From: Holothuria scabra
Lineage: Eukaryota; Echinodermata; Holothuroidea; Aspidochirotida; Holothuriidae
Length of the DNA: 64,000 bases
Direction: 5' to 3'
NCBI GenBank assembly: GCA_037179385.1
Contig: CM074188.1
Span: 26,863,318 to 26,927,317, forward strand
The notes beneath the pieces are model-generated. The model made no database searches and had not been told where the DNA came from. It saw only the letters and a program-made list of their open reading frames with translations. The position numbers were made by a program, and so were the translations under genes. This document shows positions 14,082 through 63,636 of the stretch, in pieces. The stretch's first letter is position 1. Each line of letters begins with the position of its first letter.

Positions 14082-14819
14082 TCGTTTTTGCCTTATCGTG
14101 TTTACACGTGTGGGAAAATCGTCTGGTAAAATTCCACTATTTTTTACGTACAATCTTCATGATTCTGACCAATCCTTTTTGTCTACGCCGTGGACTGCTC
14201 CTTGACGCCTTCTACCGAAACCATGAGTATCCTTTTTCTTTCAGGCCTTTTTTTCGGGGTTTTTTGCTCTTAGCTTAAGTATCGAGGATTTTCGCCTTGC
14301 GGGATCCTCTCATCTATGTAGCTTTGTACAGGGAGCGGTCTCGCGCCGCCATTTTGTTCCCGGTGCGGGCTCCGGGAATTGCGGTCCGTGGTGGACCTTC
14401 CCCCCTCCCCCTCTTCTCCTCCCGTCCGTGTAGGTTGTGGTACGGGTTTCGGGGGTTTTTGTCAGCAGGCTGGCTTCCCTTATATCTTTTTTTTAGGTCC
14501 TTAGCCGGTTCCCGCCCTCTCGTCTCCTTACATGCATGTTTTGGGAATCGTTGTTTATCGATCTCTATCCATTTTGCTTGTTTACGTTACCTTACAGGAT
14601 TTACAGTTTGTATGCATGTGGTAGGATTTTTTATGTGTTCTCTTTCTTGTTTAATATAAGGTTTCTTGCTGCATTTAATGTGTTTTTGGTTGTTGTGTAA
14701 GCATAGGCCTTGTCGTTTTGCATCGTCTTTTGACGTCATAGCTTAGGCCTCGCTAAACTCACCTCACTCTCATTGCATGCTTTCATCTTATCAGTAATCC
14801 TTATCGATTAAAGCTGTTA
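14082..14819 (+). promoter_or_regulatory. DIRS leader region
   Basis: Untranslated stretch between the left terminal repeat and the first Gag-like frame. It contains pyrimidine-rich runs and several short upstream ATGs, with no conserved protein. By position it should hold the promoter and leader; no specific box is claimed. Confidence 0.4.
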
Positions 14820-15449
14820 TTGTTGCATTGTGCTGGCCTCCCTGGCCGGCGAGTAAGTCTCTTTTGTTTGAATGTTTTCCCCGGAAGGGGTTTTGTTTTC
14901 CTTATCGCTTTGTGCACAGCGTCTAATTCCTCCAAATGCAGGAAATGCAAGAAATTCCGGCCGTTCCTGGACTGGGACTTCCACGATCTTTGTCCAGCCT
15001 GCAGACCATGCTCCCGGGTTTCCACCTGCCAGGTGTGCCGCAACTGGTCTTTCCGAGATTGGAATTCCCTGGAACAATGGGTTGAGGAAAACGAGTTGGC
15101 AAGACAAAGGAAAGCCGCTCGTAAGAGGGAAGCCGAGGCTTCCAAGGCAAAGGAAGGCAGTCATCCGACTCCAAGGAAGGATATTCCTCAATCCAAGGAT
15201 AAGTCCTCAAAGGGGCCTGCTGCGGCAGCTTCCCCGAGGACTAGTGAGGTCGGTCCAAGCACTGCGCGGTCAGGCTTGCCGAGTCTCCAAAGGAAAACCA
15301 AGGAAACCAACACCCCGGCATCTCAGCCTCAGGCGAACCAGGCCAACCGGGAAAGCCAAGGAAAAACCGGGGTCCAAGGACAACCCCGAGGCACTAATGT
15401 TCCTCTCAGGAATGCTCGCCTACCGATCCGGGAAATTCCTCGGCTCTAG
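14820..15449 (+). CDS. DIRS Gag-like N-terminal frame with cysteine cluster
   Basis: An open frame of about 209 codons that contains no internal Met. Its conserved part is a zinc-finger-like cluster K-C-R-K-C-K-K...H-D-L-C-P-A-C-R-P-C...C-Q-V-C-R-N-W, followed by a W-x-x-E-N-E-L-A-R-Q-R-K basic helix and a Pro/Ser/Lys/Arg-rich tail. It ends at a stop at 15447, while the next Gag frame (+2 relative) is open from 15398, so the frames overlap by about 50 bp. With no ATG it needs a spliced upstream exon, non-AUG initiation or an ancestral frameshift. A gtaagt at 14851 and a gtgcacag at about 14914-14921 could bound a small intron. Role inferred: nucleic-acid-binding part of Gag. Confidence 0.55.
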   Translation: MLHCAGLPGRRVSLFCLNVFPGRGFVFLIALCTASNSSKCRKCKKFRPFLDWDFHDLCPACRPCSRVSTCQVCRNWSFRDWNSLEQWVEENELARQRKAARKREAEASKAKEGSHPTPRKDIPQSKDKSSKGPAAAASPRTSEVGPSTARSGLPSLQRKTKETNTPASQPQANQANRESQGKTGVQGQPRGTNVPLRNARLPIREIPRL

Positions 15450-17092: not shown

Positions 17093-19154
17093 GGATGCCC
17101 ACCCTACCGCTCGTCCCTTGGCGGTAGGGGGGAGACTAATGAGATATGCTCACATGTGGGAGACTCTCTCACCGGACCCTTGGGTTCGGCGAGTAGTGAA
17201 CGAAGGATACAAACTAGAATTTTCCAGCCCCCCTCCTCAAGGGGGATGCTTCCGAACAACACCTGTCCTGAAATCCCGAGATCAACGACTTGCTCTAGAA
17301 AAGGAAATCTCGGGTCTTCTGGAGAAGGAAGCAATTTATGCCGCCACAGACCCCGCACGGAGCCTTTACCGGTCCTGCTTTTTCCTGACGCCAAAGAAGC
17401 CAGACACGTGGCGCCCTATCATCAATCTCAAGCCTCTGAACAAAGCCTACATTCGTCCCAGAAGGTTCAGGATGGAGACTCTTGCCGTCATTCTCCCGTC
17501 ACTCCTACAGGGATCTTGTGCAACATCCCTGGACCTCAAAGACGCTTACCTGCATGTCCCGATCCACCCAACCCACCACAAGTTCCTGGCATTTCGTTAC
17601 AAGGGTGTTGACTACTGTTTTCGGGCCCTGCCTTTCGGCCTCTCAACCGCTCCCAGAGTTTTCACAAGGGTAACAAGGACCGTCCTGGCTTTCCTCCGAA
17701 GAAGGGGCATCCTAATGTTTGCTTATCTAGACGACTGGCTCCTCGTCGCCCGATTGGCCCAAGAAGCTCAGGAGATCACGTCCTTCACCATGAACACCCT
17801 CGAGGGACTCGGCTGGGTGATCAACATAGAGAAATCCTCCTTGGTTCCGAGCCAGGTAGTCACCTACCTGGGAGCAGTGATAGACTTCCGATCCGGTCTA
17901 GCAACTCCGTCGCCAGAACGAGTACTTTCCCTTCTGGAGATGGCCAGTCATCTCAGCTCACTCGACAAAGCTCCAGCCAGACTCTGGCTTCGTCTGCTGG
18001 GCCTCATGGCCAGCACGGTCAACGTCATACCGTATTGCCGCCTCTTCATGAGACCAATCCAGATTCACCTGCTCAAACACTTCTCTCCATCGACCAGCTC
18101 TCTGGCCAAGAAGGTTCTGGTTTCGACGGACGTCCGGCAGCACCTCTCCTGGTGGACGCTTCAACGCAATATCACTTCAGGGAGACCATTCAGGGAGTCC
18201 AGGCCCAAGGCAACGATCCTGACGGACGCCTCCCTGTCGGGATGGGGAGCAGTTTGGGAATCACACACCCTGTCAGATCTCTGGAGTCCGGAAGAGTCTC
18301 AGTCTCACATCAACCTCCTGGAGCTGAAGGCTGTTCTACTGGCCCTTTCTCAGTGGGGCCCCTCTCTCAGGTCTCACCAGGTTACGGTTCTCTGCGACAA
18401 CTCAACATCAGTCTGTTATATCAACCGCCAAGGAGGGACGAAGTCACCCACTCTCTGCCAGCTGACATGGGATCTCCTCCACCTTTGCCGCCAGTTCAAC
18501 ATCCTCCTCAGAGCCTCTCACCTAGCCGGAGAGAACAACGTGATGGCGGACGCCCTGTCCAGGGGAACCCTTCAGGAGTCGGAGTGGTCCCTGTCTCAAG
18601 CATGGGCCAACCACGTCTTCCAGATCTTCGACAGACCGGTGGTAGACCTCTTTTCCTCCCAGGCCAACGCCAAACTTGAAACCTTTTGTTCGAGGTACTT
18701 TCACCCAGAAGCTTGGAGGACCGACGCTCTGGCCTTTCCGTGGGACAACCTTTACGGGTATGCCTTCCCCCCGTGGTGCCTGATACAACGAGTCCTCCTC
18801 AAACTCCGGGACTCCAACGCAATAATCTTGCTAGTAGCCCCCTGCTGGCCCAACCAGCCGTGGTTTCCGCTTCTTCTGGAGATGTTGATAGACCAACCCT
18901 TCAGGTTCCCGCTCAGGAGCAGCCTCCTAACCCAGGCCGGAGGAAAAATCTGGCACCAGCGCCTCCAGCACCTCAAGCTGACAGCCTGGAAACTCTCATC
19001 GGACGTTTCACTAGTAAGGGCCTTTCACAGGAGGCTGCGGTCATCGCAGCAGGTTCCCGACGATCCTCAACCCTTTCCACTTACGACTCGAGACTTGTCG
19101 GGTTCAGGGAATGGATGTCGCACCGAGATTTCGATCCCCTGGAAGCTCCTGTAG
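16779..19154 (+). CDS. DIRS reverse transcriptase / RNase H with methyltransferase-like C-terminus
   Basis: 791 codons from the ATG at 16779, which lies inside Gag in another frame; RT homology begins about 150 residues in. RT motifs: W-R-P-I-I-N-L-K-P-L-N, S-L-D-L-K-D-A-Y-L-H-V-P, A-L-P-F-G-L-S-T-A-P and the catalytic F-A-Y-L-D-D-W-L-L at about residue 315, the DIRS version. RNase H: T-D-A-S (about 480), L-L-E-L-K-A-V, L-C-D-N-S-T and A-D-A-L-S-R (about 590), so the acidic tetrad is intact. After it comes V-V-D-L-F-S-S-Q-A-N-A-K...D-A-L-A-F-P-W...Y-A-F-P-P...P-C-W-P-N-Q-P-W-F-P, the domain called Dam-like methyltransferase in DIRS elements. No stop or frameshift. It overlaps the recombinase frame by about 470 bp. 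Confidence 0.93.
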   Translation: MSSSSPRSSGERTSIRQNLPSPSLPLQGPEDPLAELHPVKLLDLQASLTDAPSRLLASNVGSLVPSPPEGTSLVRQLRLYLAVASRGEPSILVPGDQDGSKLSPRDAHPTARPLAVGGRLMRYAHMWETLSPDPWVRRVVNEGYKLEFSSPPPQGGCFRTTPVLKSRDQRLALEKEISGLLEKEAIYAATDPARSLYRSCFFLTPKKPDTWRPIINLKPLNKAYIRPRRFRMETLAVILPSLLQGSCATSLDLKDAYLHVPIHPTHHKFLAFRYKGVDYCFRALPFGLSTAPRVFTRVTRTVLAFLRRRGILMFAYLDDWLLVARLAQEAQEITSFTMNTLEGLGWVINIEKSSLVPSQVVTYLGAVIDFRSGLATPSPERVLSLLEMASHLSSLDKAPARLWLRLLGLMASTVNVIPYCRLFMRPIQIHLLKHFSPSTSSLAKKVLVSTDVRQHLSWWTLQRNITSGRPFRESRPKATILTDASLSGWGAVWESHTLSDLWSPEESQSHINLLELKAVLLALSQWGPSLRSHQVTVLCDNSTSVCYINRQGGTKSPTLCQLTWDLLHLCRQFNILLRASHLAGENNVMADALSRGTLQESEWSLSQAWANHVFQIFDRPVVDLFSSQANAKLETFCSRYFHPEAWRTDALAFPWDNLYGYAFPPWCLIQRVLLKLRDSNAIILLVAPCWPNQPWFPLLLEMLIDQPFRFPLRSSLLTQAGGKIWHQRLQHLKLTAWKLSSDVSLVRAFHRRLRSSQQVPDDPQPFPLTTRDLSGSGNGCRTEISIPWKLL

Positions 19155-20038
19155 AGGCAGTTGCAGATTTTCTCCTCATGCTGTTCAAGGAAGGGAAACA
19201 AGTGAGCACTATCAGGAACTACCGTTCAGCGATCGCTTCCGTGCATAAGGGGTTCCAGGACGGCTCAACTGTTGGTTCCAATGAGGCCCTTTCTCACCTC
19301 TTAACGGGCATGTTCAACCAGAGGCCACCTAGGAAATGCCTGGTTCCTTCATGGTCGATAAACGACTTCCTGTCGGCACTATCTAAGCCGCCTTATGAGC
19401 CTCTCCACAACACAACATTGGAACTACTGACCTACAAGGCCCTCTTTCTCATCGCCGCAGCGTCGGCCAAAAGACGCAGCGAACTTCATGCCCTGACCAC
19501 TCAAGAAGGGTTTATACGCTTCAGCCAAGACGGCGTCTTCCTCCTACCGGATGCATCCTTCCTGACTAAGAATGAGACGGTTTCCTTCTCCCCAGCGGAG
19601 ATCTACCTTCCAAACATCACCTCGTCCTCCTCCGTGGCCGAGGATAGGAAAGTCTGCCCAGTTAGGGCCCTGAAATGGTATTTAGAGAGGACAAAGCCAA
19701 TTAGGAAGTCGAAGAGCCTGTTTCTGATTCCCAGATCTCCTTACAACCCAGCTTCAAAAGACACCTTGTCAAGATGTTTAGTCAACCTGGTCCTGCCTCA
19801 CTCCTCCTCGGAGGACAACATGCATGCCCACCAACTTCGGGCCCACGCCTCATCGAGAGCTTGGTTTAGAGGGGTTCCATTGGTCGACATCCTCCGGGCA
19901 GCAGCTTGGAAAACACCGTCTACCTTCGTCGCCTGCTACCTTACCAACGTGGTCTCTCAAGAAGGGGGCTTCGCTAGAGCTGTCCTAGGGGTTCCAGACC
20001 GTCGTCGTCCGGACCTCCCGCCTGCCGCTCGGTGCTAA
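18686..20038 (+). CDS. DIRS tyrosine recombinase
   Basis: 450 codons; the first 100 or so overlap the RT/methyltransferase frame, and the true start is uncertain. The core-binding part has S-T-Y-D-S-R-L-V-G-F-R-E-W and T-I-R-N-Y-R-S-A-I-A-S-V-H. The catalytic part has the first Arg in S-A-K-R-R-S-E-L-H-A-L (about residue 262), H-Q-L-R-A-H-A-S-S-R-A-W (about 384, H-x-x-R box), A-A-A-W-K-T-P-S-T-F (Trp at the second His position, usual in this family) and the nucleophile Tyr in V-A-C-Y-L (about 418). It would integrate circular cDNA by site-specific recombination. The frame is intact and ends just before the internal complementary region. Confidence 0.93.
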   Translation: MFEVLSPRSLEDRRSGLSVGQPLRVCLPPVVPDTTSPPQTPGLQRNNLASSPLLAQPAVVSASSGDVDRPTLQVPAQEQPPNPGRRKNLAPAPPAPQADSLETLIGRFTSKGLSQEAAVIAAGSRRSSTLSTYDSRLVGFREWMSHRDFDPLEAPVEAVADFLLMLFKEGKQVSTIRNYRSAIASVHKGFQDGSTVGSNEALSHLLTGMFNQRPPRKCLVPSWSINDFLSALSKPPYEPLHNTTLELLTYKALFLIAAASAKRRSELHALTTQEGFIRFSQDGVFLLPDASFLTKNETVSFSPAEIYLPNITSSSSVAEDRKVCPVRALKWYLERTKPIRKSKSLFLIPRSPYNPASKDTLSRCLVNLVLPHSSSEDNMHAHQLRAHASSRAWFRGVPLVDILRAAAWKTPSTFVACYLTNVVSQEGGFARAVLGVPDRRRPDLPPAARC

Positions 20039-23626: not shown

Positions 23627-25021
23627 TACGGAAGCGTATAAGTGCCACAAGATCACAAACAAATAACCTGACAATTTGCAATAATTTGTTACCTTCAGCA
23701 CATATATCTCAACAAAATGCAGAAAATTGTGCGTTTTCACAGTTACTCATTTTCTTAAAATGCAGCAAAAAATTGCTTAATGCTTTTTTGTCGGGTTTAC
23801 CCAACCTATGATCTCAACAATTATTTGCACAATTGCAAATTGTTGACTTTTTCAAACTTTGCATGGGAGCAAAATTTTACTCAATGTTCAATTGACATTT
23901 TGTGATCTCCACAATTATTTGCAAAATGGTGAGTCCCATACTCATGAAAACTTTACAATGAAGCAAAATTTTACCCAATGTCCAATTGACATTTTGTGAT
24001 CTCCACAATTATTTGCAAAATGTTGAATTCCTTACTTATAAAAACTTTGCAAAGAAGCAAAATTTTACTCAATGTTCAATTGACGTTTTGTTTTCTCTAC
24101 AATTATTTGCAGAATGTTGAGTTCCTTACTCATTACAACTCTTCAAAGGGGCAAAATTTTACCCAATATTCAGTTCATATTCCGTGATCTCAACAATTAC
24201 ATGCAAATGATGAATTCCTTAAACTCTGCAAAGAAGCAGAATTTTACTCACTATTCAGTTGAAATTTTGTGATTTTAACAATTATTTGCAACATTGAATT
24301 GTTGTTTTGCCAACCTGTTCAAAGAAGCCTGTATATTACGCAAAAGTATATACAGCACTCCGTTTTTCTGATAACGTATTTCACTATCAATATAATGTAA
24401 TGCTTCTTTATAAAGTTTTCATGACTAAGAAATTCAACATTTTGCAAATAATTGTGGAGATCACAAAATGGCAATTGAATAGTGAGTCAAATTTTGCTTC
24501 TTTGTAAATTTTTGATGAGTAAGGAACTCAACATTTTGCAAATAATTGTGGAGATCACATTATTTCAATTGAACATTGACTGAAATTTTGCTTCTTTGTA
24601 AAGCTTTGATGCGTAAGGAACTCAACATTTTGCAAATAATTGTGGAGACCAGAAAATGTCAATCGAAAATTGAGTCAAATTTTGCTTCTTTGTAAAGTTT
24701 TTATGAGTAAGGAATTCAGCATTTTGCAAATAATTGTGGAGATCACAATATGTCAATTGAACATTGAGTAAAATTTTGCCCCCATGCAAAGTTTAAAAAC
24801 GTCAACAATCTGCCATTTTGCAAATAATTGTGGAGATCATGAGTTGGGTAAACCCGACAATAAAGCATTAAGCAATATTTTGCTGCATTGCAAGAAAATG
24901 AGTAATTGTGAAAAGGCACAATTTTTTGCATTTTGTTGAGATATATGTGCTCAATGTAACAAATTATTGCAAATTGTCTGGTTATTTGTTTGTGATGTTG
25001 TGGCACTTATACGCTTCCGTA
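23627..25021. mobile_element. 1.4-kb fold-back element, tandem 94-bp repeats in both arms
   Basis: The two halves are inverted copies: TACGGAAGCGTATAAGTGCC at the left and its exact complement at the right end. About 200 bp of outer inverted repeat match with roughly 90% identity (my count by eye). Inside, each arm holds four to five tandem units of 94 bp marked by gatctccacaattatttgca (left: 23902, 23996, 24090, 24183) and the inverse (right: 24436, 24530, and onward). The direct flanks GTTAAA (23621-23626 and 25022-25027) look like a target duplication. This is the TU/Foldback architecture; no protein is encoded. Confidence 0.9.
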
Positions 25022-27368: not shown

Positions 27369-30300
27369 GTGAGATCACAGAGATGATCAATTTTTTTTAT
27401 GGAAAATATTTTTTACATGTTGTTTAGAAATGTTAGGCTGGAAGTTACAAAATAAAAGTAATGTGGAGAAATGTTGGAATTTTTCATGCCTTTATAGAGG
27501 AAAAGCAATTTTACTGATGAAGATGCACTTCTGTTTTCTTAAAGTGGACATTGAAGTATGTAAATAGAAAGTTGACTCAAGGAAAGCCGAGAGTGTCATG
27601 TATCAGATTGTATGAGCATGTTAAGGAGACATAAATTGAAACATAGATTAGAAAGTGCTGGCTTTAGTAGAAATTAATGTGCAGGTTAACTGAATGTATT
27701 GCAGTGTCTGCTTTTAACATATCGCAGTGTAGCCCCCACTAAAATCTCATAACCCTTGCAGTCTTAAGCCCAACTTCTTGATAGAAAGTCAGAATATTAC
27801 TTGGTATTTCTGTGTACAGGTTTTAGCCATTCCAACAATTACAACTTATAAGATAATTCAGATAAGATAAACCCAGATAAGTGTTGGGGCACTATAAACT
27901 GTAGGTACCAATATACAGTCAATTCCTGGCATTTAGCTCAGAAGTCTGGTCATATACTTAAGTGAGTGAGGGCTTATTCATATAATGTGGAAGAATTTCA
28001 TATCAGAAGAGCACATTATATCATATTTAGGATTGCAAATTTGCCTGACTGTGTTTATACACTACCTAATTATTATTTATTTCATGTGCCCAGGAGAGAT
28101 CGATCTGGTGGAGGTGTTTGTATTTGTCTTCGTAAAGGTTTTAAAGTTCGTGATATGCATGCAAGGCAGTTTGAGTCATTTGAATATATGGATTTGTTTT
28201 TAACTGCCAAAATGCAGCAACCTCTACATTTAGTAGTGGTTTATAGACCTCAGCTAACTGCCAACAAAAAGTCAACTGCTTCAGTATTTATTCATGAGTT
28301 TGCATCATTTATTGAGGACATTGCATCCACTCCTGCTAACTTACTCATTACAGGTGACTTCAACTACCATGTTAATGATTCATCAGATCATGAAGCTTCA
28401 GTTTTCTTGGATCTTATTGACTCAGCTAATCTTGTACAACATGTCCCTTGCCCTACTCATCTCAAGGGTCACACTTTGGATCTAATTCTAACAAGGGCAT
28501 CTGATGATTTTGTTTCTGGTGTTTCAACTACACACTTTCTTCCTTCAGACCATGCTGCTGTAACTTGTTCTGTATCAATAAGCAAACCTCCTACCACTAA
28601 ATTGGAAGTCAAATTTAGAAGGTTTAATGACATTGACCTTGATAAATTTCGCCAAGATATTCTTAATTCAAAATTATACACTGCTCCTTGCTCTGAGGTG
28701 AACTTACTGGTTCGACAATATGAAACTTGTCTTGAGTGAACTTATTAATATTCATGCTCCTCTCTCTTGTCGTAAAGTTACTGCCCGTCCTCATGCACCT
28801 TGGTATAATGACAATCTTAGGAAAGAAAAACAGAAACTTCGCCATGCTGAACGCCTGTGGTTGAAAAGTAAACTTGAAGTCCACAAACAGATCTTTCGTG
28901 ACCAAGCATACTTATATAAGAACATGATTCTTGATTCTAAGCGTAACCATTATCAACATTACATTGAAGAATGTAACTCTCGTTAACTTTTTCAAAAGGT
29001 CAACAGTCTAAGTGCTCCTGATTCTAAACATGTTCTTCCTCATGGTTTTAGTACTCAGCCATCCCTTGCCAATAATTTTAGTAACTTCTTTGCCAATAAA
29101 GTGAAATGTATTAAGGAGGATCTTCATAATATGCCAGCTAACAATGATCCACATATTCCTTGTGAGCCTTGTACTAGTTCTTTTAGAGGATTTTCTCTGA
29201 TTAGTGTGGAAAAAGTCTCTAGTATTATTCAGAACTCTCCAACAACTTCTTGTTCTATGGATCCTATACCTACTTGGCTTCTCAAGAAATGCATCAAAGA
29301 ACTGGCTCCTATCATAACAAAGATTATTAATGGTTCACTACAGACTGGTATTTTTCCAGAGTCGCTAAAAGTTGCGCACATTACTCCTCTTATTAAAAAT
29401 GCAAAGCTTGACTGTGAGAATCTCAAAAACTATCGTCCAGTAGCTAATCTCAAATTTCTTGCTAAGTCAATTGAACGTGCTGCTGTATTACAGATCCAAG
29501 ATTACCTCTCGCATAATAACCTTCACAGCAAGTATCAGTCTGCTTACAGAAGCCACCATTCTACAGAATCTGCCCTTCTAAGGGTTTACAATGACTTGCT
29601 GCTTTCAGCTGATAAAGGAAAGGAATCTGTTCTTGTATTATTGGACTTTTCTGCTGCTTTTGACACCATTGATCATACTATCCTTTTACAACGCCTTTCT
29701 AATAGATTTGGATTTTGTGAAACTGCACTCCGCTGGTTTACATCATACTTTACCAACCGATTGCAACATATTAATATCAACGGTCACTTATCTGAGGCTC
29801 ATGTACCTGAAGAGGGAGTCCCTCAAGGATCTGTTATTGGTCCTCTTGCTTTCACTTTGTACACATCTTCTATTGAAAACATAATAGAATCATATGGTCT
29901 GTTCAAAATGATTTATGCAGATGACACTCAAGTGTATGCTATAGTTGATAATAGAAACTGCCATTCAGTATTACCGCAACTGGAAACTTGTGTTAAGGAC
30001 ATCCTTTCGTGGTCAACCACCAACAGTTTAAAACTCAATCCTGAGAAAACTGAAGTACTACACCTTGTTTCTCGCTTCCGTGATACTATACCACTCACCA
30101 GTATTTCCATTGGAGACTCTTTAATAACGCCTGCCCAGAGTGCAAAAAATCTGGGTGTTATTTTCCAGAATGATCTTAGCTTATCTCAGCATATTAATAA
30201 TGTGTGTCGCTCTGCCTCCTTTGCTTTGCACAAAATTGGTCAATTACGACATTATTTGGATGCCCAAACTACTGAAAAGCTTATTCATGCATTCGTTACC

Positions 30301-31296
30301 TGCCGTCTGGATTATGGAAATAGTCTTTTCTATGGTTTACCTAAACACCAAATTTCAAAACTCCAGCGAATTCAAAACTCAGCGGCTCGACTTGTTGCAT
30401 TAACAAAATCATGTGACCACATCACCCCTGTTCTTCGTAATCTTCACTGGCTTCCTGTGCAGCATCGTATCAACTACAAAATCCTTCTTCTTACATACAA
30501 ATGCATCCATGGTTTTGCTCCATTATATCTAAAGGATCTTATATCTAATTACAAGTTTTTACGGAACCACGCTCCAGCTCTCAATCTCTTTTAAATGTGC
30601 CGTCATCTGTTACCCATTCTTATGGTGATCGTGCTTTTTCAACAGTATCTGCAAAACTGTGGAATGACCTTCCATCTTTTGTCAAGAACTCTTCCACTGT
30701 TGGACAATTTAAAACTAACTTGAAAACTCATTTGTTTACTTTGTCTTATTGACGGCATGTTGTATAGTTTTAGCGCTTTGAGACTTCTTGTGTAAGGCGC
30801 TATATAAGAACTGTTATATTATTATTATTATTATTATTATCTTCATTGGATTGAGTAGAGAAGAATTTTACATTTCATTGTAAAAGACCTATAAAGGGAA
30901 ATATAGGGCAAATTCTGATGACAATAAGTATTTGTTATGTGCCAATCTTAAGGTGCACATGCTTTTTGTAATGGATAAAAAGCATGGTTATCAAAACTGA
31001 AATGTTCCAAAAGCAAAAAGAGTGCAAAGATATGTACAGTTTGTGAAGACTATGTTTTGGGGATTTTAGCAAGTTTTGACTATTGCAGTAGATTGTGTGG
31101 CATAGAAAATGCTTTAAGATGGCTTACATATTTTAATAAAGAGCCAAGTTAATTTGCTGTCTTTCAGAATTTGAGTAAAACATGTCAGGTCTATGTGTGT
31201 TGAGAAATTAAGGAACTTGTTGGCGCAAGAAACCAGAAGTTAATTGGGAATTTATTTACAATTTAACAATTAAAAAAAATTTTTTCCATTATGCAG
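27369..31296 (+). other. Intron 5
   Basis: 3.9 kb, phase 1, gtgaga...tgcag. Mostly a LINE (27966-30846) on the same strand as the gene. 27369-27960 and 30850-31290 show nothing recognised. Confidence 0.75.
27966..30846 (+). pseudogene. CR1/L2-superfamily LINE, 5'-truncated, few lesions
   Basis: The first frame (27966-28739) is an APE-type endonuclease lacking its N-terminus: R-S-G-G-G-V-C-I, V-V-V-Y-R-P, L-L-I-T-G-D-F-N-Y-H, L-D-L-I-L-T-R, L-P-S-D-H-A-A-V. A frame change near 28720-28739 leads to the reverse transcriptase: N-Y-R-P-V-A-N-L, L-D-F-S-A-A-F-D-T-I-D-H, G-V-P-Q-G-S-V-I-G-P and the catalytic I-Y-A-D-D-T-Q. One in-frame TAA (28984) interrupts it, and a second frame change near 30570 moves the C-terminal A-F-S-T-V-S-A-K-L-W-N-D-L-P block into another frame. 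The short 3' UTR has an AGCGC...GGCGCT hairpin and ends in (ATT)n. No ORF1 is present. It is dead as it stands but young enough to read through. Confidence 0.9.
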
Positions 31297-31616: not shown

Positions 31617-32840
31617 TGTTAGCTAAAGGAACCTATGGAATCAGGTTGGCACATGTGTGTGTGTTTGTGTTTGTATGTCTGTGATGCTAGCTTGGGTATG
31701 CTCTTACTCAACAAGGGAAAGTTTAACTTAAATGAAACAATTCATATATAGAACCGTTATAGTGAGAAGGCGTGCCCTGTCATTTTTGTTGGAGGTTCAA
31801 GGTCATTTAGGGTCACTAGGGGTCAAACACTGAACAGCTTTTGAAGACAGTTTCTGTATGTAGGAAGCTTGGATGGATTTCATGCTTTAAGTAGATATGT
31901 TATGGTGCGAAGTCATATCCCAGCTGCAATTTTTGGTGACAGTCAAAGGTTAATTATATTAAAGTTGGTCAAACATCAAAAATCTTGTCAACAAGATATA
32001 TCTCAAGGTATGAATCTTGGATTAATTTAATTTCATACTTGCTATGTGGATGCATTGTGGTGCATGGATAAAACTTGGTATGTTTGGTGAAGGTCAAAGG
32101 TTATTTGGAGTCATGAAGGACCCAACACTGAAAGCCATGTTAAAATGATATCTCAAGTAAGGAAGCTTAAAGCGGCCCATTGAGTTGGTTCGTGAAATGC
32201 AACAAATTTTTCCAAACCTGTTAAGTTTTCTTCACATACCAATTACAAATGGTCAAACTTAGGCAATCCCTATACCCTACATACAAATAACTGTTTTATG
32301 AGTGAGTACTTAACAGTTGAAGTCGGTTTTCCAAAATTCATGACCAGACACTTTTTCAAATTATGTACAAAACCATTACAAGTCAGGACACTAGAAAATT
32401 AAAAATTTTAACGTTTTCTGTGACTTTTGGACTTTTGGAAACTTGACTTGTTATGCAAACTAGAAGCATTGTTATGTGGTAGTGACCCTTTAAGACTCTC
32501 ATTAAGTTATTGATATCAACTCAATGAGCCTCTTTAAATATGTTTCATATTTAGTATGTGTTAAGGCAAGAAGAGGAATCATGCTGACTTTTGTGGAGGT
32601 CAGAGGTCGTTTAGGGTCACCATAGCTAGGTCAAACATTAAAACCTTGTAAACAAAATATCTCAAGGCAGAAAGCTTGGATAGGTTTTACCTTTGATATT
32701 TGGAAGTGTTTTTGCAGAAATAAGAGTTGTGTTGTTTTTGGTAGAGGTGGAAGATCATCTGGGACAACTTGAGGTAAAACACTGGAAACCTTGTGAACAA
32801 GATAGTATAAATTATCTCAAGATATGAAACTTGAAGCTTG
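31617..32840 (+). mobile_element. Helentron-like element, subfamily 3, diverged, 3' end missing
   Basis: It starts with the right hairpin arm aaaggaacctatgg and caggttggcacatgtgtgtg. Then come gatgctagcttgggtatgct, tactcaacaagggaa and about seven decayed minisatellite units with gttcaaggtcatttagggtc, agtcaaaggtt and gtcagaggtcgtttagggtc. The head matches 41217 (GGTTCCTTGC...AAGGAACC). No 3' stem-loop is found. Confidence 0.65.
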
Positions 32841-36445: not shown

Positions 36446-36664
36446 GCTTATCTCTATAATTGCATCAGTTAATACCTTTTACAACCAAACTTGCTCCATT
36501 GACCAATCAGTCTTTAAAACGGTTCAAACCCCTTTAATTTTAATGATCTCAAGACACCTGAACAGGAAGTTCTCTGATAGATTCTGGATTAAGAGTGGTC
36601 AACTAGAGATGGCTAAAACTTGCTATTCATTTCTAGGGTCATGATAAATTACAAATCATTTTTT

Positions 36665-39590
36665 GATTCCTTGCCGAAGGCAGGCAAGGAATCTATGTGA
36701 TGGTGATGTCGCGTGTGTGTGTGTATGTGTGTGTGACGCCTGCTTGTAAACACGATATCTCAAGAACGGTAACCCCCAGGGATCTCAAACTTGGCATGTA
36801 GATTGTCCACATTGAGTAGATGGTCCCTATTTTTTTTTGGTAGAGGTCAAATGTCATTTGGGGTCACCAGAGGACAAAATGTAAATACCTTGGAAATTGC
36901 TTGTAAACACGATATCTCCAGAAGGAAAAATTTGAGCAATCTCATACTTACCTTGCTGATTGTCCATATTGAGTAGATGGTCCCTATTGTTTTTGATGGA
37001 GGTCAAAGGTCATTTGGGGTCACCAGAGAGAAAAAGGTCAAAACCTTGTAAACACTGTATCTCAAGAAGGGTAAATGTGAGGGATCTCATACATAGCAGG
37101 TGGATTGCCCATATTAAGTTGATGATCACTATTATTTTTGGTGGAGGTCAAAGGTCATTTGGGGTCATCAGAGATGAAAAGCTCAAAAACTTGTAAACAC
37201 CATATGTCAAGAAAGGTAACTGCCAGGAATCTCATATTTACTAAGTGGATTGTCCATATTGAGTAGATGACCCCTATTGTTTTTGGTTTCGATGATAAGA
37301 GAAACCAATGCAATCATGATGGCGTGCGTGTGTGTGTGTGTGCGTGTGTGTGTGTATGTGTGTGTGTTCCTGACACTTTGCTTGTTAACACGATATCTCA
37401 AGATAGGAATGTGTGACAGTTTTCAAACTTGGTACATAGATGCGCCATATTGAGAGGAAGAACCCTATTGTTTTTGGTGGAGGTCAAAGGTCACCTGGGT
37501 CACCAGGGGTCAGAGTCTGAAAACCTTGTTAACACAATATCTCAAGATAGGAAGCTTGGATAGATTTCAGAATTGGTATGTGGATGCATTATAGTCAGTA
37601 GATGGTCCCTATCGTTTTGGGGGTAGTTCAAAGGTAATCTGGGGTCACCAGGGGTCAACATCTGAAAATCTCGTTAACACGATATTTCAAGGTAGAAAGC
37701 TTGAATAGATTTCATGTATAATATGTGGATGTGTTATGGTCAGGAGATGGTCCCTATCGTTTTTGGTGGAGGTCAAAGGTCATCTGGGGTCACCAGGGGT
37801 CAAAGTATGGCAGCCTTGTTAACAGGATATCTCAAGGTAGGAAACTTGGATACATGTCATATTTGGTATGTGGATGCATCATAGTCAGTAGATGGTCCAT
37901 ATAGTTTTTGGCGGGGGTCAAAGGTCATCTGGGGTCACCTGGGGTCAAAGTCTGAAAATCTTGTTAACATGATATCTCAAGGTAGGAAGCTAAGATAAAT
38001 TTTATACTTGGTATGTGGATGCATTATAGTCAGTAGATGGTCCCTATTGTTTTTGGCATAGGTCAAAGGTCATCTGGGATCACTGGGGGTCAACATCTGA
38101 AAATCTCGTTAACACGATATTTCAAGGTAGAAAGCTTGAATAGATTTCATATATAGTATGTGGATGTGTTATGGTCAGGAGATGGTCCCTATCGTTTTTG
38201 GTGGAGGTCAAAGGTCATCTGGGGTCACCAGGGGTCAAAGTATGGCAGCCTTGTTAACAGGATATCTCAAGGTAGGAAACTTGGATAGATTTCATATTTG
38301 GTATGTGGATGCATTATGGTCAGTAGATGGTCCCTATTGTTTTTGGCGGAGGTCAAAGGTCATCTGGGGTCACCTGGGGTCAAAGTCTGAAAATCTTGTT
38401 AACATGATATCTCAAGGTAGGAAGCTTGGATAAATTTTATACTTGGTATGTCGATGCATTATAGTCAGTAGATGGTCCCTATTGTTTTTGGCATAGGTCA
38501 AAGGTCATCTGGGATCACTGGGGGTCAACATCTGAAAATCTCGTTAACACGATTCCTCAAGGTAGAAAGCTTGAATAGATTTCATATTTAGTATGTGGAT
38601 GTGTTATGGTCAGGAGATGGTCCCTACCGTTTTTGGTGGAGGTCAAAGGTCATCTGGGGTCACCAGGGGTCAAAGTATGAAAACCTTGTTAACGCAATAT
38701 CTCAAGGCAGGAAACTTGCATAGATGTCATATTTGGTATGTGAACCCCTTATAGTCATCAAATGGTCCCTATTTTTTTGGCGGAGGTCAAAGGTCATCTG
38801 GGATCATCAGGGGTCAAAGCATGAAAACCTTGTTAATGCAAGATCTCAAGGTAGGAAACTTGGATAGATTTCATATTTGGTATGTGGATGTGTCATAGTC
38901 AGTAAATGATTCCTATTGCTTTTGGCGTAGGTCAAAGGTCATCAGGGGTCACCGGGGGTCAAAGTCTGAAAACCTTGTTTATGTGATATCTCAGGGTAAG
39001 TAGCTTTGATAGATTTCATATTTGTTATGTGGATGGGTTATGGTCAGGAAATGGTATGTAATGTTTTTGATGGAGGTCAAAGGTCATCTGGGGTCACTGC
39101 TGGTCCATGTCTGAAAATCCTGCTAATGCAATATCTCAAGATAGGAAACTTGGATAGATTTCATATTTGGGTACTGTATGTGGATGCATTGTTGTCAGAA
39201 GATGGTCCCCATAGTTTTTGGCAGAGATGAAAGGTCATCTGGGGTCTCCAGGGGTCAAAGCCTGGAAACCTTTCTAAATGTGATCTCTCAAGATAGCTGT
39301 TTGTCCATTTGTCTGTCTGTTGTTTGTCATTCTAGCTATGTATTGCTTTTATGGAGGTCAAAAGGTCATCTGGAATGACAAAATTATTTTTTGAACATGC
39401 TAGTATAACATTTGAATGAGAAGATAATGGTGCATGATGGCACTCTTTGAAACGGAAATTTATGTATCATCGAAACCTCAATGCATTTTTGCATTCTGGT
39501 TATTGGATGTCAAAGGTCATTTGGGGTCATCAGAGTTCAAAACATCTAAACCTTGCAAACACTACATCTCAAAAGAGTATAACTGTTGAA
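36665..39590 (+). mobile_element. Helentron-like element, subfamily 1, split by a nested copy
   Basis: Head hairpin GATTCCTTGCC/GGCAAGGAATC (36665, 36683), gatggtgatg, (TG)n and gcttgtaaacacgatatctc, then four minisatellite units. It is interrupted within cctattgtttttgg at about 37284 and resumes at about 39503 with ggatgtcaaaggtcatttgg. The 3' tail with the stem-loop is missing, so the outer copy is truncated. Confidence 0.75.
37285..39502 (+). mobile_element. Helentron-like element, subfamily 2, nested, with 145-bp array
   Basis: Head GGTTTCGAT...GAGAAACC hairpin (37285), catgatggcgtg and (TG)n, then about thirteen units of 145 bp: AGGTCAAAGGTCA boxes start at 37771, 37916, 38061, 38206, 38351, 38496, 38641, 38785, 38930 and 39075. 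The 3' end has ATCGAAACC (39469), complementary to the head, then the stem-loop AATGCATTTTTGCATT and TCTGGTTATT. Both ends are present, so this is a full-length non-autonomous copy. Confidence 0.8.
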
Positions 39591-41216
39591 GTTAATATCC
39601 ATGAGCGGTTAGGGTGAAAGGGTAAGAATAATTTGGCATGGGTAATGTAATAGGCATAGGGTATATAATTTTTTTGGAACAGTTATTAACTTCACTATGT
39701 AAATTCTTTAGTGAGGTAATTTTGAAAATGCATTTGTAAAGTACTGAAGCAAACTCATAGGAAGAAGGTCTAAGGTGCACAAAAAGGCACATCACATGGT
39801 AGTTACTGTACAATATGTTGATTCTGGCATGAAATTGTGCCCTGTTATTACATTACATGAAAAAGTGGGCAGAGCAAAATATAAAATTTTAAAAGGCAAA
39901 ATCTGTTCATCAGGTTGGCATACATGCTTCAATGCTCATGGGTATGCTGATTTTGCAGCCACAAGTAAATAGATTTTCATGAAACTGATGTGGAACATGT
40001 GAGTTTAAACAGTCTGTATAAGGGTCATTTAGGGACATAGTCTGAAAATATTAGATGCTTCTGTGCACACTAAGTAGATGACTGATGTGGAACTTCATAA
40101 GTATAAACTTTGAACAGAGAGTACTCTGTGTGATGCACAAGAATCTCTTTTATAACATACCTACATTGCTTTTTCAATAACCTTAAAGAAAACCTGAAGA
40201 AAACATTAAATTTAGTGGCAAAAAGTGCTAATATTTGACAAACCTTGTGCCTACTGTCCTCATGAGGACATGTGCATGCAAGCATGCATTAATTGGAAGT
40301 GGGAATTGATTAATTAGATATACCACAGTTAATTAGTTTTACAAAAAAGAACCTAATTTACACTGATCATTTGGTATCAAATACCCTTCAGCGCACATGA
40401 ACTGTCATTGCCTAATAGAGTGAATCAAATTGTGACTGACCCATTCTTTGCCATTTGGTCACAGTTATCTGGCCCAATTTTTCACAGTTGACTGCCAGTT
40501 ATCCCCACAGTGTCCTGAAGGATTACCTCATACAAACATACAGCTCAATTGACTTAAGCTTTTTACTGTATAAGTGGTGTTAATTGACTCTTATAAACCC
40601 TCTGAAGAAAGCTTATTTTTATCTCAGTACATAACCATGACAGCCCATTGTTTGTATATACTCCTATTTCCTGCCATTCCCTGCAGGCATTCAGTACTCT
40701 ATTTGTGGTCAAAATGTCAGACCTCCATGAAAGTCACACCTCTGCTAAATCCAGCATAAAATAACTGTCCACATTATCTTGTCTCATCTGACCACAAATA
40801 AAAGTTGTTTGCTTAGCCATTGTCTGGAGATGGAGAAGTACATGTACACTTATCAAGTTTCTAAACTGAAAGTCATCTTAGAAATACTGTAGATTGACAC
40901 CCTTCAGAAATTAGTGTCCTTTATATATAGAAGCTGGTGGAATTGAACAAATAGTGTGTTTGTATAAGGAATTTTGTTGAACACAACTTTAAACATTGGT
41001 GTCTGTCTAGATTGGTGTTTCTGCTTTACAGTTTCAATATGCTCTGCAGTGATTATTTGTCCCTTAGTTTCATTCTAGAATTTGTTTTAAATTTTTGATC
41101 GCATAAAATGTATCAGCATACTACTTGCCTCATCTCTGCTTATATCTGGTGAAGGATTATTTAGTTATGTCAAATATCATCATCAAGTGGGAATTCTTGT
41201 CTCACATTTCATTTTT

Positions 41217-41755
41217 GGTTCCTTGCGGTAGCAAAGGAACCTATGTAGTCAGGTTGGCGTGTGTGTGTGTGTATGTGTGTGTGCGTGTGTGTGTGTGTGA
41301 CACTTGCTTCGGTACGCTCTAACTCAACAAGGGAATGTTGGATGGAACTTGGATTTGGTACATAGATTCATCATAGGGAGAAAGTGTGCCCTATTGTTTT
41401 TGGTGGAGGTCAAAGGTCATTTGGGGTCAAAAGAGGTCAAAAACTAAAAACCTCAATAAGATATTTCTAGTTAGGGAACTTGGATAGATGTCATACTTGG
41501 TGTGTGGATGTGTTATGGTGTAAGGATGAAATTGGATATGTTCAGTGAAGGTCAAGGGGTCATCTGAGGTCACCAGGGGTCAAACACTGAAAAACATTTT
41601 AACACAGTATTTTACGTTCGAAAGGACAGATTTCAAATCAATCTGTGTTTGGGTAAGGTCAAAGGTCATCAAGGTCACTGGAGGTCAACCGCTGGAAATG
41701 TTATTTAGAAAATCTTGTAAGCTAGATAAAGATTGTTTCAATAGATTTTTTATCT
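41217..41755 (+). mobile_element. Helentron-like element, subfamily 3, 5' part
   Basis: Hairpin GGTTCCTTGC ggta GCAAAGGAACC (41217-41241), tatgtagtcaggttggcgtg, (TG)n and gcttcggtacgctctaactc. About three diverged units with ggtggaggtcaaaggtcatt follow. The 3' stem-loop is not found. Confidence 0.7.
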
Positions 41756-43479: not shown

Positions 43480-43776
43480 AATATTAAAGCTGTATGAGAA
43501 ATTCCTCTTGTGTGTGGAGATCAAAGGTTTGAGGTGACAATTAGATCAAACTTTGTAGACTTAATATTTTTAGGGGGATAACTGTGAGGGATCTCATACC
43601 ATGGTGGTAGTACTTCCATACTCATTCTGTACTAAGCTTAATTTTGAATTACTCATGTTGATGGACATGTTGGTTAGGTGATCACTATTGTTTTTAAGGG
43701 GTCGAAAGGTCATTTTGGGTCACATGAGGTCAAGGAAGGCAAGGAATTACTAAGCCTGTTGGCTTTCTAGTTTTTC
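43480..43776 (+). mobile_element. Helentron-like subfamily 1, 3' fragment
   Basis: Two decayed units, then GGCAAGGAATT, the stem-loop AAGCCTGTTGGCTT and TCTAGTTTTT at 43738-43776. The 5' head is absent. Confidence 0.65.
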
Positions 43777-48484: not shown

Positions 48485-49874
48485 TTTTGGTTTCGATGAA
48501 AAGAGAAACCTATGCATTCATGATGGCGTGTGTGTGTGTGTGCCTGTGTATGTATGTGTGTGTGTATGTGTGTTCGTGACACTTTGCTTGTTTACACGAT
48601 ATCTTGAGAAGGGAAGATATGACAGTTTTCAAACTTGGTACACAGATACCCCTTACTGAGAGGAAGAACCCTATTTATTATTTTGGTTGAGGTCAAAGGT
48701 CATCTGGGGTCACAGGGGTCAAAAACCGAAATCTTTGTTTACACAATATCTCAAGATAGAAAACTTGGATTAATTTCAAACTTGATATGTAGATGCATTA
48801 TGATGTAAGGAAGAACCCTATTGATTTTGGTGGAGGTCAAAGGTCATTTGGGGTCACTTGGGGTAAAACCCGGAAATCCTTGTTCACACGATATCTTATG
48901 GTAGGAAACTTGGATTAATTTCAAACTTGATATGTTGATGCATTATGATGTAAGAAAGAATCGTATTGATTTTGGTGGAGGTCAAAGGTCATTTGGGGTC
49001 ACATGGGGTCAAACCCCGAAATCCTTGTTTTCACGATATCTCATGGTCGGAAACTTTGATTCATTTCAAACTTGATATGTTGATGCGTTAAGATGTAAGA
49101 AAGAACCGGGTATATTTTCGTGGAGGTCAATGGTCATTTGGGGTCACATGGGGTCAAACCCTGAAATCCCTGTTTACACTATATCTCAAGGTAGGAAACT
49201 TTGATTCATTTCAAACTTCATATGTTGATGCGTTATGATGTGAGGAAGAACCCAATTTATTTTGGTGGAAGTCAAAGGTCATTTGGGGTCACGCGGGGTC
49301 AAACCCAGAAATCCTTGTATACATGATGCATCATGGTAGGAAAGTTGGATTCATTTCAATCTTGATAGGTTGATGCGTTATGATGTAAGAAAGAACCCGA
49401 CCAATTTTGGTGGAGGTCAAAGGTCATTTGGGGTCACATGGGGTCCAAACCCTGAAATCCTTGTTTACATGATACATCATTGTAGGAAAGTTGGATTCAT
49501 TTCAGACTTGATATGTTGATGTATTATGATGTAAAGAAGAATCCTATTCATTTTGGTGGAGGTCAAAGGTCATTTGGGGTCAGAAGGGGACAAATCGTGA
49601 AAAACTTTTTAACACAATATCTCAAGGTAGGAAGCTTGGATTGATTTCAAACTTGATATGTTGATGTGTTATGATGTAAGCAGCTTGTTTGTATGTAAAA
49701 AAAAAAAAAAAATTTGTAGAAATGTTTTGGTTAAAAGAAAAACCAGTTACTAACAGGTGGAGTCAAAGGTCACTTTGTGTCACCAGTTGTTACAAGAAAT
49801 GTAGCATTTCATTGAAAAGAGCATGTATGTATCATCGAAACCTCAATGCATTTTTGCATTCTGGTTTTTTTTTT
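48485..49874 (+). mobile_element. Helentron-like element, subfamily 2, full-length
   Basis: Head GGTTTCGATGAAAAGAGAAACC-type hairpin (48489), (TG)n, gtgacactttgcttgtttac, and about eight 145-bp units (boxes near 48690, 48835, 48980, 49123, 49268, 49413, 49560, 49757). The 3' end has ATCGAAACC (49834), the stem-loop AATGC-ATTTTT-GCATT (49845-49860) and CTGGTTTTTTTTTT. No coding capacity. Confidence 0.8.
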
Positions 49875-50672
49875 CATTGGTAAGGCATTGAGGTCACGGG
49901 GCGCGTCAAGATCTAATATTGTGAGGGAGTGGGGGCGTATTACAGTATGTGTATAAAGGACATATTACTACTACAATGGCATAAACCGGATTATATAAGG
50001 GGCTAACTGCACAGCCTGGACGCCGGCTGGGGAATGGGTTTACAAGATTATGTAGGAGGAGGGGTGTCCATCGCCTTTGAGAAATTTTGGCCATTAAAGT
50101 TCCTTTACAGAAGCAATCTGGTGCAATATTGCCATCATTTGAAGTTTTTTTTTCGATTTTTAGGTGTGTATGGGCAACACTTATGGTTGTATCCTTTGCC
50201 TTTTTTTCAAAATTCGATTCAGGGCCGTAGAAAAATCCCTTCCCCCTTGACGTCAAATTTAGTAGGCTCATATAGTTGACAAAACAAGGTTCAGTCCACC
50301 CACATATCAACCAATGACACGCCACATTTGATACTCCACTTTGATGGTGATGTGAACTCAGACAATGCCCCTCCCCCTAAATTCCCCCCCCCTTCCCAAC
50401 CTGGAGTTAAAATCCTGCCATTGACTTAATTCATTTGCATACATTTGGCACCCTGAAAATTTTTTTTCGCCCACCCCATCCCATTTTTCGCAAATGACAC
50501 TGACGGACTAGGCCCCGTTGGCTGACGGGTATCATACATGCAGAGAAAATTTTCAACTAGCCCAGTTGTCTAAAGTGCCTCTCATATTGTCGGAATGGCA
50601 CTTTTAAATTTCCCAGTCTAGGGGGCCGCTAAGATCTGTTCTTTCAATGGCCAGGTGTTTATTTCATTTTTT

Positions 50673-52378
50673 GATTCCTTGCCGTAGGCAGGCAAGGAAT
50701 CTATGCGATGGTGATGTCGTGTGTGTGTGTGTGTGTGTGTGCGCGTATGTGACGCTTTGGCTTGTAAACACGATATCTCAAGAAGGGTAAGTCTGAGGGA
50801 TCTCATACTTGGCATGTGGAATGCCCATATTGAGTAGATGATCCCTATTGTTTTTGGTGGACGTCAAAGGTCACTTGGGGTCACGAGAGGTCAAAAGGTC
50901 AAAATCTTGTAAACACGATATCTCGAGAACGGTACATGTGACTATGCTCATATTTGGTGTGTGGGTTGGTCATATTGAGTAGATGATCCCTATCGATTTT
51001 CTTGGAGGTCAAAGGTCATTTGGGGTCACGAGAGGTCAATGGGTAAATTCCTTAGAAATTGCTTGTAAACAGGGTATCTCAAGAAGGGTAAGTGTGACTA
51101 ATCTCATATTTGGTGTGTGCATTGGCCATATTGAGTAGATGATCCCTATTGTTTTTGGTGTAGATCAAAGGTCATTTGGGGTCACTAGAGGTCAAAAGGT
51201 CAAAACTTCATAAACACGATATCTCGAGAACGGTACATGTGACTATGCTCATATTTAATGTGTGGGTTGGTCATATTAAGTAGATGATCCCTGTCGATTT
51301 TCGTGGTGGTCAATGGTCATTTGGGGTCACGAGAGGTCAAAAGGTCAAAACTTCGTAAACACGATTTCTCGAGAACGGTACATGTGACTATACTCATATT
51401 TGGTGTGTGGGTTGGTCATATTGAGTAGATGATCCCTGTTGTTTTTGGTGGAGGTCAAAGGTCATTTGGGGTCACGAGAGGTCAAAAGGTCAAAACTACG
51501 TAAACACGATATCTCGAGAACGGTACATGTGACTATGCTCATATTTGGTGTGTGGGTTGGTCATATTGAGTAGATGATCCCTTTTATTTTGGTGGACGTC
51601 AAAGGTCATTTGGGGTCACGAGAGGTCAAAAGGTCAAAACTTCATAAACACGGTATCTCAAGAATGGTACATGTGACTATGCTCATATTTGGTGTGTGGG
51701 TTGGTCATATTGAGTAGATAATCCCTATTGATTTTCGTGGCGGTCAAAGGTCATTTGGGGTCACGAGAGGTCAATAGGTAAATTTCTTAAAAATTGCTTT
51801 TAAACACGGTATCTCAAGAAGAGTAAGTGTGACTAATCTCATATTCGGTGTGTGCCTTGGCCATATTGAGTAGATGATCCCTATCGTTTTTGGTGGAGGT
51901 CAAAGGTCATTTGGGGTCATGAGAGGTCAAAAGGTCAAAACTTCGAAAACACGATATCTCAAGAACGGTACATGTGACTGTGCTCATATTTAGTGTGTGG
52001 ATTGGTCATATTGAGTAGATGATCCCTATTGATTCTCTGAAAGGTCAAAGTTCATTTGGAGTCAGCCTGTTCAAAGCCTGAAAAGCTTTCCTGCACAGTC
52101 TTTCAAGAAATGTCACTTGTAGGGTCCTGTAACTTGTCCTGTAGATGGCACATAGTGAATACATGGTCCCAGAAGTTTTTGGTGGAGGTCAAATGTCATT
52201 TGGGTTCACAACGGGCAAGGGGGATCTCAATGTAGGAAGATTGGATGCCTTGCATGTGTACTTTGTGGGCACATTATGGAGCCCTGTTAATTGAAAAACA
52301 TTGCCAAGCAATGTCAGTGTGAAAAAAGGCCTTACATTTCAGCGGCAAGGAATCACTAAGCCTTTTGGCTTTCTGGTT
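50673..52378 (+). mobile_element. Helentron-like element, subfamily 1, full-length
   Basis: Head GATTCCTTGCC/GGCAAGGAATC (50673, 50691), gatggtgatgtcg, (TG)n and gcttgtaaacacgatatctc. About ten units of 145-160 bp follow, with gtcaaaggtcatttggggtc and acgagaggtcaaaaggtcaa. The 3' end has GGCAAGGAATC (52344), the stem-loop AAGCCTTTTGGCTT and TCTGGTTAA. 1.7 kb with both ends present. Confidence 0.8.
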
Positions 52379-54528: not shown

Positions 54529-54749
54529 TGAACACACCATATTTGTTAACTGAATCCTCCAAAACACATTATCTTGAAAATGAGAATTTTGGTAAGACAA
54601 ATGCAATTACTCTAGGATTTATTGTACTGTTGTTTTGGTCTACATTCCTCCCAGCTTATGTAATGAACAAGACAAACATATTGCAAGGGTCTGGTATTCA
54701 TCCAATTTGGAACTATTTGTTTGACCGGGTCAGTTTGGATGGAAAAGCA

Positions 54750-55310
54750 TTTCATAACATCTCAAGATAGGAAACTTGGGTAAATTTTGTACTTTGTATG
54801 TGGATCAGTTATCCTGAGAGGACAATACCTATTGTTGTTTTGGTGGAGGTCAAATATCATCTAGGATAACCAGGGGGTAAAAGTGTGAAAAACTTGTTAA
54901 AATGATATCTCTAGACAGGAAACTTGGATAGATTTCATACTTGGTATTTGGATGGGATAAACTAAGAGGATGGTCCCTATTGTTTCTAGTGGAGGTCAAA
55001 GGTTATCTGGGGTCACCAGTGGTAAAAGTCTGAAAAACTTGTTAACATGATATCTCAAGATAGGAAACTTGGATAGATTTCATACTTGGGGTGTGTGGAT
55101 GCACTTTAGTAAGAGGATAGACCCTATTGGTTTTGGTTGATGTCAAAGGTCATCTTGGGTCACCAGGGTCAGAGTGTGAAAAACTTGTTAACACCATTTT
55201 AAAATTGGACACTTACATATATTTCATATTTGGTATGTGGAAATGTCATGGTGGAAAGATGGTGTCTTCTGTTGTTAGAGAAGGTCATCTGGGGTAACAC
55301 AAAAGTTATT
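54750..55310 (+). mobile_element. Helentron-like minisatellite block without ends
   Basis: Four units with catctcaagataggaaactt, ggatagatttcatacttggt and ggtggaggtcaaaggttatc. No head hairpin or tail stem-loop, so it is a fragment, closest to subfamily 2. Confidence 0.65.
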
Positions 55311-63381: not shown

Positions 63382-63636
63382 TCATGTAATTATTCTGTTT
63401 TGTGATATGTAAATTAGACATCTGCTTGTTAAGATTCACCCATGAGCAGGATTTACATTTTCATGGATACAACTTCCTGCATTACCATTGTCACTGTATT
63501 ATTGAAACCTTGAGGAGTCAGGGTTTTTTTTGTATGCTTTGGAGGTGTTAATATGGGTGAGATTAAGCTTACAAATTAACTTTGCTGGATTATCAGACTG
63601 TGTTGGAAGTTTGTAAAGCTATTGTCATGCATTTTT

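Follow-up and report, generated by a model that had tools for sequence, protein, structure and literature searches.

Non-autonomous Helentrons provide the closest described counterparts of the repeat considered here. Cg_HINE elements of the Pacific oyster are described as carrying a 5′ subterminal repeat with a complementary inverted repeat, a microsatellite, tandem central repeats with a consensus of 138-181 bp, a 3′ subterminal repeat, a 3′ palindrome and a T-rich insertion site (PMC7492417). In the account given in PMC4067079, HINE, DINE-1 and Helentron elements likewise have subterminal repeats, a 3′ palindrome and a preference for TT, with tandem repeats in some copies, and the subterminal repeats of the mite elements are palindromic. 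The element of Holothuria scabra analysed below resembles Cg_HINE, as described, from the 5′ subterminal repeat to the T-rich insertion site.

Our analysis of a 64-kb window (C10:26,863,318-26,927,317, in a genome of 1.19 Gb and 31 contigs) places the array at 37,285-39,502 in a family of non-autonomous Helentrons (HINEs), where it forms the central minisatellite. The family has palindromic subterminal repeats, a (GT)n tract, 145-bp units, a 3′ palindrome and a T-rich insertion site, and it comprises three subfamilies, A, B and C, each with distinct ends. Subfamily B has GGTTTCGATGATA as its 5′ and TATCATCGAAACC as its 3′ subterminal repeat, which form a perfect 13-bp inverted repeat in B1 and one with a single mismatch in B2, and is closed by the palindrome AATGCATTTTTGCATT and a terminal CTGG. 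Subfamily A has TGATTCCTTGCC at the 5′ end, GGCAAGGAATCA at the 3′ end and the 3′ palindrome AAGCCTTTTGGCTT; the palindromes of A and B precede TCTGG or CTGG. The features by which HINEs are recognised were found in these elements: inverted subterminal repeats at either end, the 5′ one accompanied by a short inverted repeat, a palindrome near the 3′ end (in A and B) and insertion at TT in T-rich DNA, with TT following five of five A- and B-type 3′ ends. The elements of the window are as follows.

37,285-39,499, + strand: HINE B1, subfamily B, nested in an older A element, with 13-bp inverted repeat, 3′ palindrome, CTGG and flanking A-type units.
37,285-37,306, + strand: 5′ subterminal repeat of B1, with the internal inverted repeat GGTTTC...GAAACC.
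37,324-37,367, + strand: (GT)n microsatellite of B1.
37,380-39,296, + strand: about 13 tandem 145-bp units of B1 with the half-site cluster.
37,770-37,802, + strand: example of a complete cluster, AGGTCA-A-AGGTCA-TCTG-GGGTCA-CCAG-GGGTCA.
39,465-39,477, + strand: 3′ subterminal repeat of B1, TATCATCGAAACC.
39,480-39,499, + strand: 3′ palindrome of B1, AATGCATTTTTGCATT, with the terminal CTGG.
36,664-37,284, + strand: left part of A2, an older A-type HINE split by B1.
39,496-39,577, + strand: unit fragment of A2 resuming past B1; the 3′ end of A2 was not found in the window.
48,489-49,864, + strand: B2, a second subfamily B HINE, its 5′ repeat differing from that of B1 by one mismatch.
50,672-52,376, + strand: A1, a subfamily A HINE with TGATTCCTTGCC at the 5′ end, GGCAAGGAATCA at the 3′ end and palindrome AAGCCTTTTGGCTT.
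1,836-2,316, + strand: A0, a short subfamily A HINE.
41,216-41,729, + strand: 5′ part of a subfamily C HINE, with a third type of 5′ end; its 3′ end was not found in the window.
43,500-43,770, + strand: decayed copy whose 3′ end is of the A type.
31,745-32,835, + strand: E, decayed unit arrays matched by the unit profile.
54,744-55,299, + strand: D, a decayed unit array matched by the unit profile.

At 63,636-63,720 lies another 5′ end of subfamily A together with a GT tract, and no 145-bp unit appears between it and the window edge. B1 is inserted in a T-run of a unit of the older A element, with A-type unit matches on both flanks; in this sole nested insertion examined, the T-run hides the exact base where a target-site duplication would show. 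The ends of A and B recur in stretches from other chromosomes, and a B 3′ end of 28 bases is present 4,266 times in the genome in exact form, compared with 0 for the same pattern read backwards. No Rep/helicase was found in the five window frames scanned against Pfam. A sequence-only reading of this DNA had proposed a mobile minisatellite. Its mobility is supported by the defined HINE ends, the nested insertion and the 4,266 exact 3′ ends, but what moves is the complete HINE, its ends lying near 37,285 and 39,499.

The repeat unit is marked by nuclear-receptor-type half-sites. The exact DR1 string AGGTCAAAGGTCA, two direct RGGTCA half-sites spaced by one base, occurs 22 times on the + strand of the window and 0 times on the − strand, bearing out the earlier count of at least 20; ten of the 22 lie inside 37,285-39,502, and 100 first-order Markov simulations of 64 kb gave a mean of 0.02 copies and a maximum of 1. 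Start-to-start distances between successive RGGTCA half-sites on the + strand were 10 bp (a 4-bp spacer) 56 times, 7 bp (a 1-bp spacer) 23 times and 8 bp eight times, and no two half-sites lay within 40 bp of each other on the − strand of the window. Tandem Repeats Finder reported a period of 145 with 13 copies at 37,381-39,272. An nhmmer profile of the unit matched the window 63 times at E up to 10, always on the + strand and at the weakest no better than chance, in 12 clusters; the 60 with E up to 0.01 were aligned. The spacing of 1, 4 and 4 that had been read from the unit is a fair description of a typical copy but not a universal one, the strict four-site string AGGTCAAAGGTCA-N4-RGGTCA-N4-RGGTCA occurring ten times in the window. 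Among the arrays of the window, hexamers 1-3 vary less than hexamer 4. A-type units (50,811-51,988 and locus L029) often carry a fifth half-site, AGGTCA-AA-AGGTCA (DR2), behind the fourth. Interspersed with the 145-bp units are longer ones of about 156 bp, which carry an insertion near model column 94 and make up a higher-order repeat, at 50,956-51,108 and 51,691-51,843 of the window and at 5,258-6,455 of locus L010.

Genome-wide, exact DR1 occurs 93,824 times (47,963 forward and 45,861 reverse), whereas the same pattern read backwards occurs 145 times (80 and 65). In the first 200 kb to be sampled, every one of the 15 exact copies fell within a unit match. Exact patterns of the half-site cluster had no match in the viral and bacterial/archaeal contigs scanned, and Rfam gave no match at gathering score. 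We also considered megabase-scale strand domains, an idea for which two papers on replication forks were consulted (PMC5371812, PMC5876387), and rejected them: the oriented B 3′-end pattern lies on both strands over 0.89-2.97 Mb of C1, an interval in which exact DR1 had + copies alone among the matches listed, these probably covering one strand incompletely. Among the 100 B 3′ ends listed for C1, nine of nine neighbour pairs less than 10 kb apart were co-oriented and farther neighbours were so in 30-63% of cases (runs test P = 0.039); this local co-orientation may come from local duplication or strand-dependent insertion. Other elements of the window include a DIRS-like element at 14,757-20,038, with a reverse transcriptase frame and with RNase H-like and tyrosine-recombinase matches below the Pfam cut-offs, a LINE at 27,966-30,594 with endonuclease and reverse transcriptase frames, and a 94-bp repeat at 23,809-24,839 in two adjacent arrays of opposite orientation (23.8-24.3 and 24.4-24.8 kb). 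In protein searches with two retroelement frames of the window, nine rows among the best 120 listed for each bore an organism name, seven of these being echinoderms, one a coral and one a limpet.

We evaluated substitution within the window using one tree per test, without support values, on related subfamilies and with a profile trained on the window itself; the first tree held 46 of the 60 aligned units (at least 95 columns) and later trees held 44 window units (at least 110 columns). Among nine window array consensuses, DR1 showed 0 of 436 pairwise differences, in contrast to 789 of 3253 (24%) outside the cluster. DR1 and its adjoining bases had the lowest change count of all 13-column stretches, as the claim that DR1 is the best-conserved part of the unit had implied. 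The third hexamer differed in 12/193 comparisons and the fourth in 36/193, the latter being variable in three of its six columns. In the tree of 46 units, DR1 had 35 terminal changes and 1 internal change, against 386 and 197 for the rest (Fisher P = 2e-5), and the split was again 35 and 1 on a tree made without the DR1 columns. Under the same treatment, each with a tree that omitted it, 22 blocks outside the cluster had 16 to 36 internal changes. The total steps of DR1 were low (P = 0.002 against random columns and 5e-5 by base-matched permutation), and 0 of 50,000 step-matched draws had so few internal changes. The probability of zero variable columns among 13 was 8e-5, which over about 130 possible blocks comes near 0.01, and a second test in other DNA was therefore needed.

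The outside sample comprised 240 kb in 10-kb stretches picked regardless of the motif (twenty from C1-C20, at 5.0 Mb, and a further four from C3, C11, C14 and C19, at 20 Mb), six of the 24 bearing units. The first 20 stretches gave 65 unit matches, of which 59 were aligned; with locus L029 these make 75 matches, 57 of them in the tree. Loci L001-L008, chosen for holding DR1, were excluded from every conservation count. Internal changes per column in the 57 outside units stood at 0.50, 0.33, 0.50 and 1.0 in hexamers 1-4; the two 4-bp spacers had 1.5 and 3.25, and the remaining columns 1.85. A template of the hexamers, with the first base of the fourth left out, ranked first of 142 placements, with 11 internal changes compared with 15 for the next placement and a median of 39; in the window units alone the template ties with the placement one base on. 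Pooling 44 window and 57 outside units gave 0.83, 0.50, 0.83 and 1.67 for the hexamers, 2.0 and 5.5 for the spacers and 3.27 for the rest, and among 86 units the hexamers had fewer internal-branch changes than both spacers pooled (Mann-Whitney P = 3e-4, A and G at the first bases being counted as one).

At hexamers 1-4 the 75 outside matches shared the majority base of the window in 91%, 92%, 90% and 83% of cases, compared with 87% and 73% at the two spacers and 72% elsewhere in the unit; hexamer 4 reached 95% when its first base was set aside. The first base of RGGTCA is an A/G position, where swaps between the two are expected; four of the eight internal changes of hexamer 4 fall there, and merging A with G leaves one of those four. 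In the outside arrays, departures from the array consensus numbered 42/494 in DR1 and 700/3680 in the rest. Together these data show that substitution is slower in all four hexamers than outside the cluster or in the second spacer, which changes freely, and that the first spacer is intermediate. It is therefore the hexamers that are preserved, not simply one contiguous block. For the DR4 pair the picture is mixed: hexamers 3 and 4 change more slowly than the spacer between them and than the remaining columns, yet hexamer 4 varies in three of its six columns among window arrays.

Such a pattern could also arise without any function, were mutation bias, gene conversion, recent ancestry, short duplications of GGTCA or alignment anchoring to mimic conservation. 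TCTGGGGTCA and CCAGGGGTCA resemble a duplicated decamer, and gene conversion between element copies is described for the Drosophila ISX element (PMC4384637). DR1 also differs in some outside arrays: between outside array consensuses it differs in 49 of 532 comparisons (9%) and the rest in 980 of 3648, a DR1 count raised by fragments of one or two units, and array L010a has ATGTCA as its second half-site. Insertions and deletions are not depleted: hexamers 1-3 and their spacers took 4 of 32 events where their length predicts 5.2, and DR1 took 2 where 2.9 are predicted, so the spacing of the half-sites enjoys no special protection. A few control hexamers are equally intact. Outside the window, hexamers 1-4 were fully intact in 36/62, 42/65, 42/67 and 48/58 cases (58%, 65%, 63% and 83%). 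The median across 94 control hexamers was 38%, but the top six, of which three lie at alignment ends, reached 68-93% and so matched or exceeded hexamers 1-3. Against an origin without function stand the base-matched permutation, the step-matched draws and the agreement of the block-free tree, together with the recurrence of the hexamer contrast in units on other chromosomes; moreover, conversion should homogenise the spacers together with the hexamers. We consider a purely neutral origin rather improbable. Half-sites diverging as fast as the rest would have told against the earlier reading; in the window and the 240-kb sample the comparison came out in its favour for substitutions, but indels are no rarer in the cluster.

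The age of the arrays bears on when the constraint acts. In four younger arrays, departures from the array's own consensus were 13/401 in DR1 and 380/3205 in the rest, whereas in the decayed arrays the two rates were nearly equal (4/31 and 33/246 in D, 11/62 and 107/440 in E). These data suggest that constraint acts while the element spreads and that little of it persists in older, decaying arrays. In 21 decayed or edge units, a set that includes fragments perhaps detected through their retained cluster, DR1 differed at 25/261 positions compared with 152/823 in the other columns of constant consensus, and this lower rate of change fits poorly with full relaxation after insertion.

Given the position of the array, selection by the host must also be weighed. 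A calcium-binding EGF pattern has eight matches in the window, all on the + strand (26.1, 27.2, 31.3, 31.4, 35.3, 57.9, 61.0 and 62.9 kb), and Pfam confirms EGF in the frame holding those at 31.3 and 31.4 kb. Since the array is flanked by EGF segments of the same strand, it probably lies in an intron; of the insertion into an intron proposed earlier, the placement between EGF-coding segments is seen by pattern, and the intron itself is probable. Insertions in such places could give host genes receptor sites that host selection then keeps, and precedents exist in human Alu (PMC3252374) and Drosophila ISX (PMC4384637). However, the signal is common to many copies of several subfamilies, and DR1 is lost in D and E at about the rate of the rest, so that we regard co-option by the host as very unlikely to explain the conserved hexamers.

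A hairpin, formed by a single-stranded transposition intermediate or a transcript, would preserve the block by another route. RNAalifold on 12 units does pair TTTTTGG with the DR1 block, but folding was no better than in shuffled sequences (z of -0.84 to 2.08 for RNA in seven stretches and 0.19 to 1.72 for DNA in six), two-sided change was seen in 2 of 15 pairs and the covariation term was -0.18. Single-strand structure is disfavoured by these shuffle scores and by the covariation term, and we judge it a highly improbable cause of the conservation.

The half-sites have kept their sequence better than most of the repeat around them, which suggests that some protein binds them. We propose, with a probability of roughly 0.45, that a selfish element keeps receptor-type sites in order to be bound by a host protein, most likely a nuclear receptor, and so to stay mobile. 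A host protein would bind the hexamers during the spread of the element, the best candidate being a DR1-binding nuclear receptor of the RXR, COUP-TF, HNF4 or TR2/TR4 type. The bound receptor would hold the chromatin of the element open, or keep it transcribed, in the germ line or early embryo, and open chromatin would let the Helentron machinery reach it; arrays would decay once old. A receptor with this effect wherever Helentrons move would account for the constraint on the hexamers.

The main rival to this receptor reading is a different binding protein that recognises the hexamers, such as the Helentron Rep/helicase or RPA, a zinc-finger protein or a CENP-B-like satellite-box protein. Slow hexamer change does not identify which protein is involved, and TTTTTGG upstream of DR1 and the first 4-bp spacer are also fairly well kept, so the footprint may exceed a receptor site. 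The repeated RGGTCA, the free second spacer and the A/G alternation at the first base of hexamer 4 nevertheless fit nuclear receptors, for which repeated RGGTCA, a variable spacer and an A/G first base are known traits. In addition, the central repeats of Cg_HINE elements are described as unrelated, some of them between related ends (PMC7492417), so that the Helentron machinery seems not to need a half-site motif. On this evidence we think a non-receptor binder unlikely.

It is conceivable, though doubtful, that a transposon family of the rolling-circle type spreads by means of its own tandem enhancer, the DR1-DR4-DR4 cluster kept by selection on mobility, and that its approximately 94,000 perfect DR1 sites could titrate or rewire RXR-class receptors. 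The role of tandem repeats in non-autonomous Helentrons is, to our knowledge, open; were they arrays of receptor sites under selection, the repeat would be cargo with a job. One mobile family would then supply most of the perfect DR1 sites of a genome, with a bearing on the evolution of receptor networks and on the interpretation of receptor ChIP in Holothuria scabra.

In the open-licence literature searched, we found nothing describing nuclear-receptor half-sites in a minisatellite or Helitron. The likeness to Cg_HINE is one of architecture: the description consulted for that family mentions no nuclear-receptor-type motif, and its microsatellites are mostly of 4-base units, several of them GTCY, GTCC or GTCK (PMC7492417), whereas the H. 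scabra elements carry half-sites and a (GT)n tract. Among echinoderms, the sea urchin Tsp transposons are cited with DINE-1-like elements (PMC4067079). The Drosophila ISX element likewise disperses protein-binding sites by mobility, recruiting the dosage compensation complex with binding shown (PMC4384637), whereas binding in H. scabra is predicted. The HNF4-alpha sites of human Alu offer a likeness in motif, since there too a dispersed element multiplies nuclear-receptor sites (PMC3252374). Alu, a retrotransposon, is described as mostly having between one and three sites per element, these being imperfect 13-mers at which binding was shown; the H. scabra family, in contrast, carries perfect DR1, as predicted sites, in tandem arrays on an element of the rolling-circle type.
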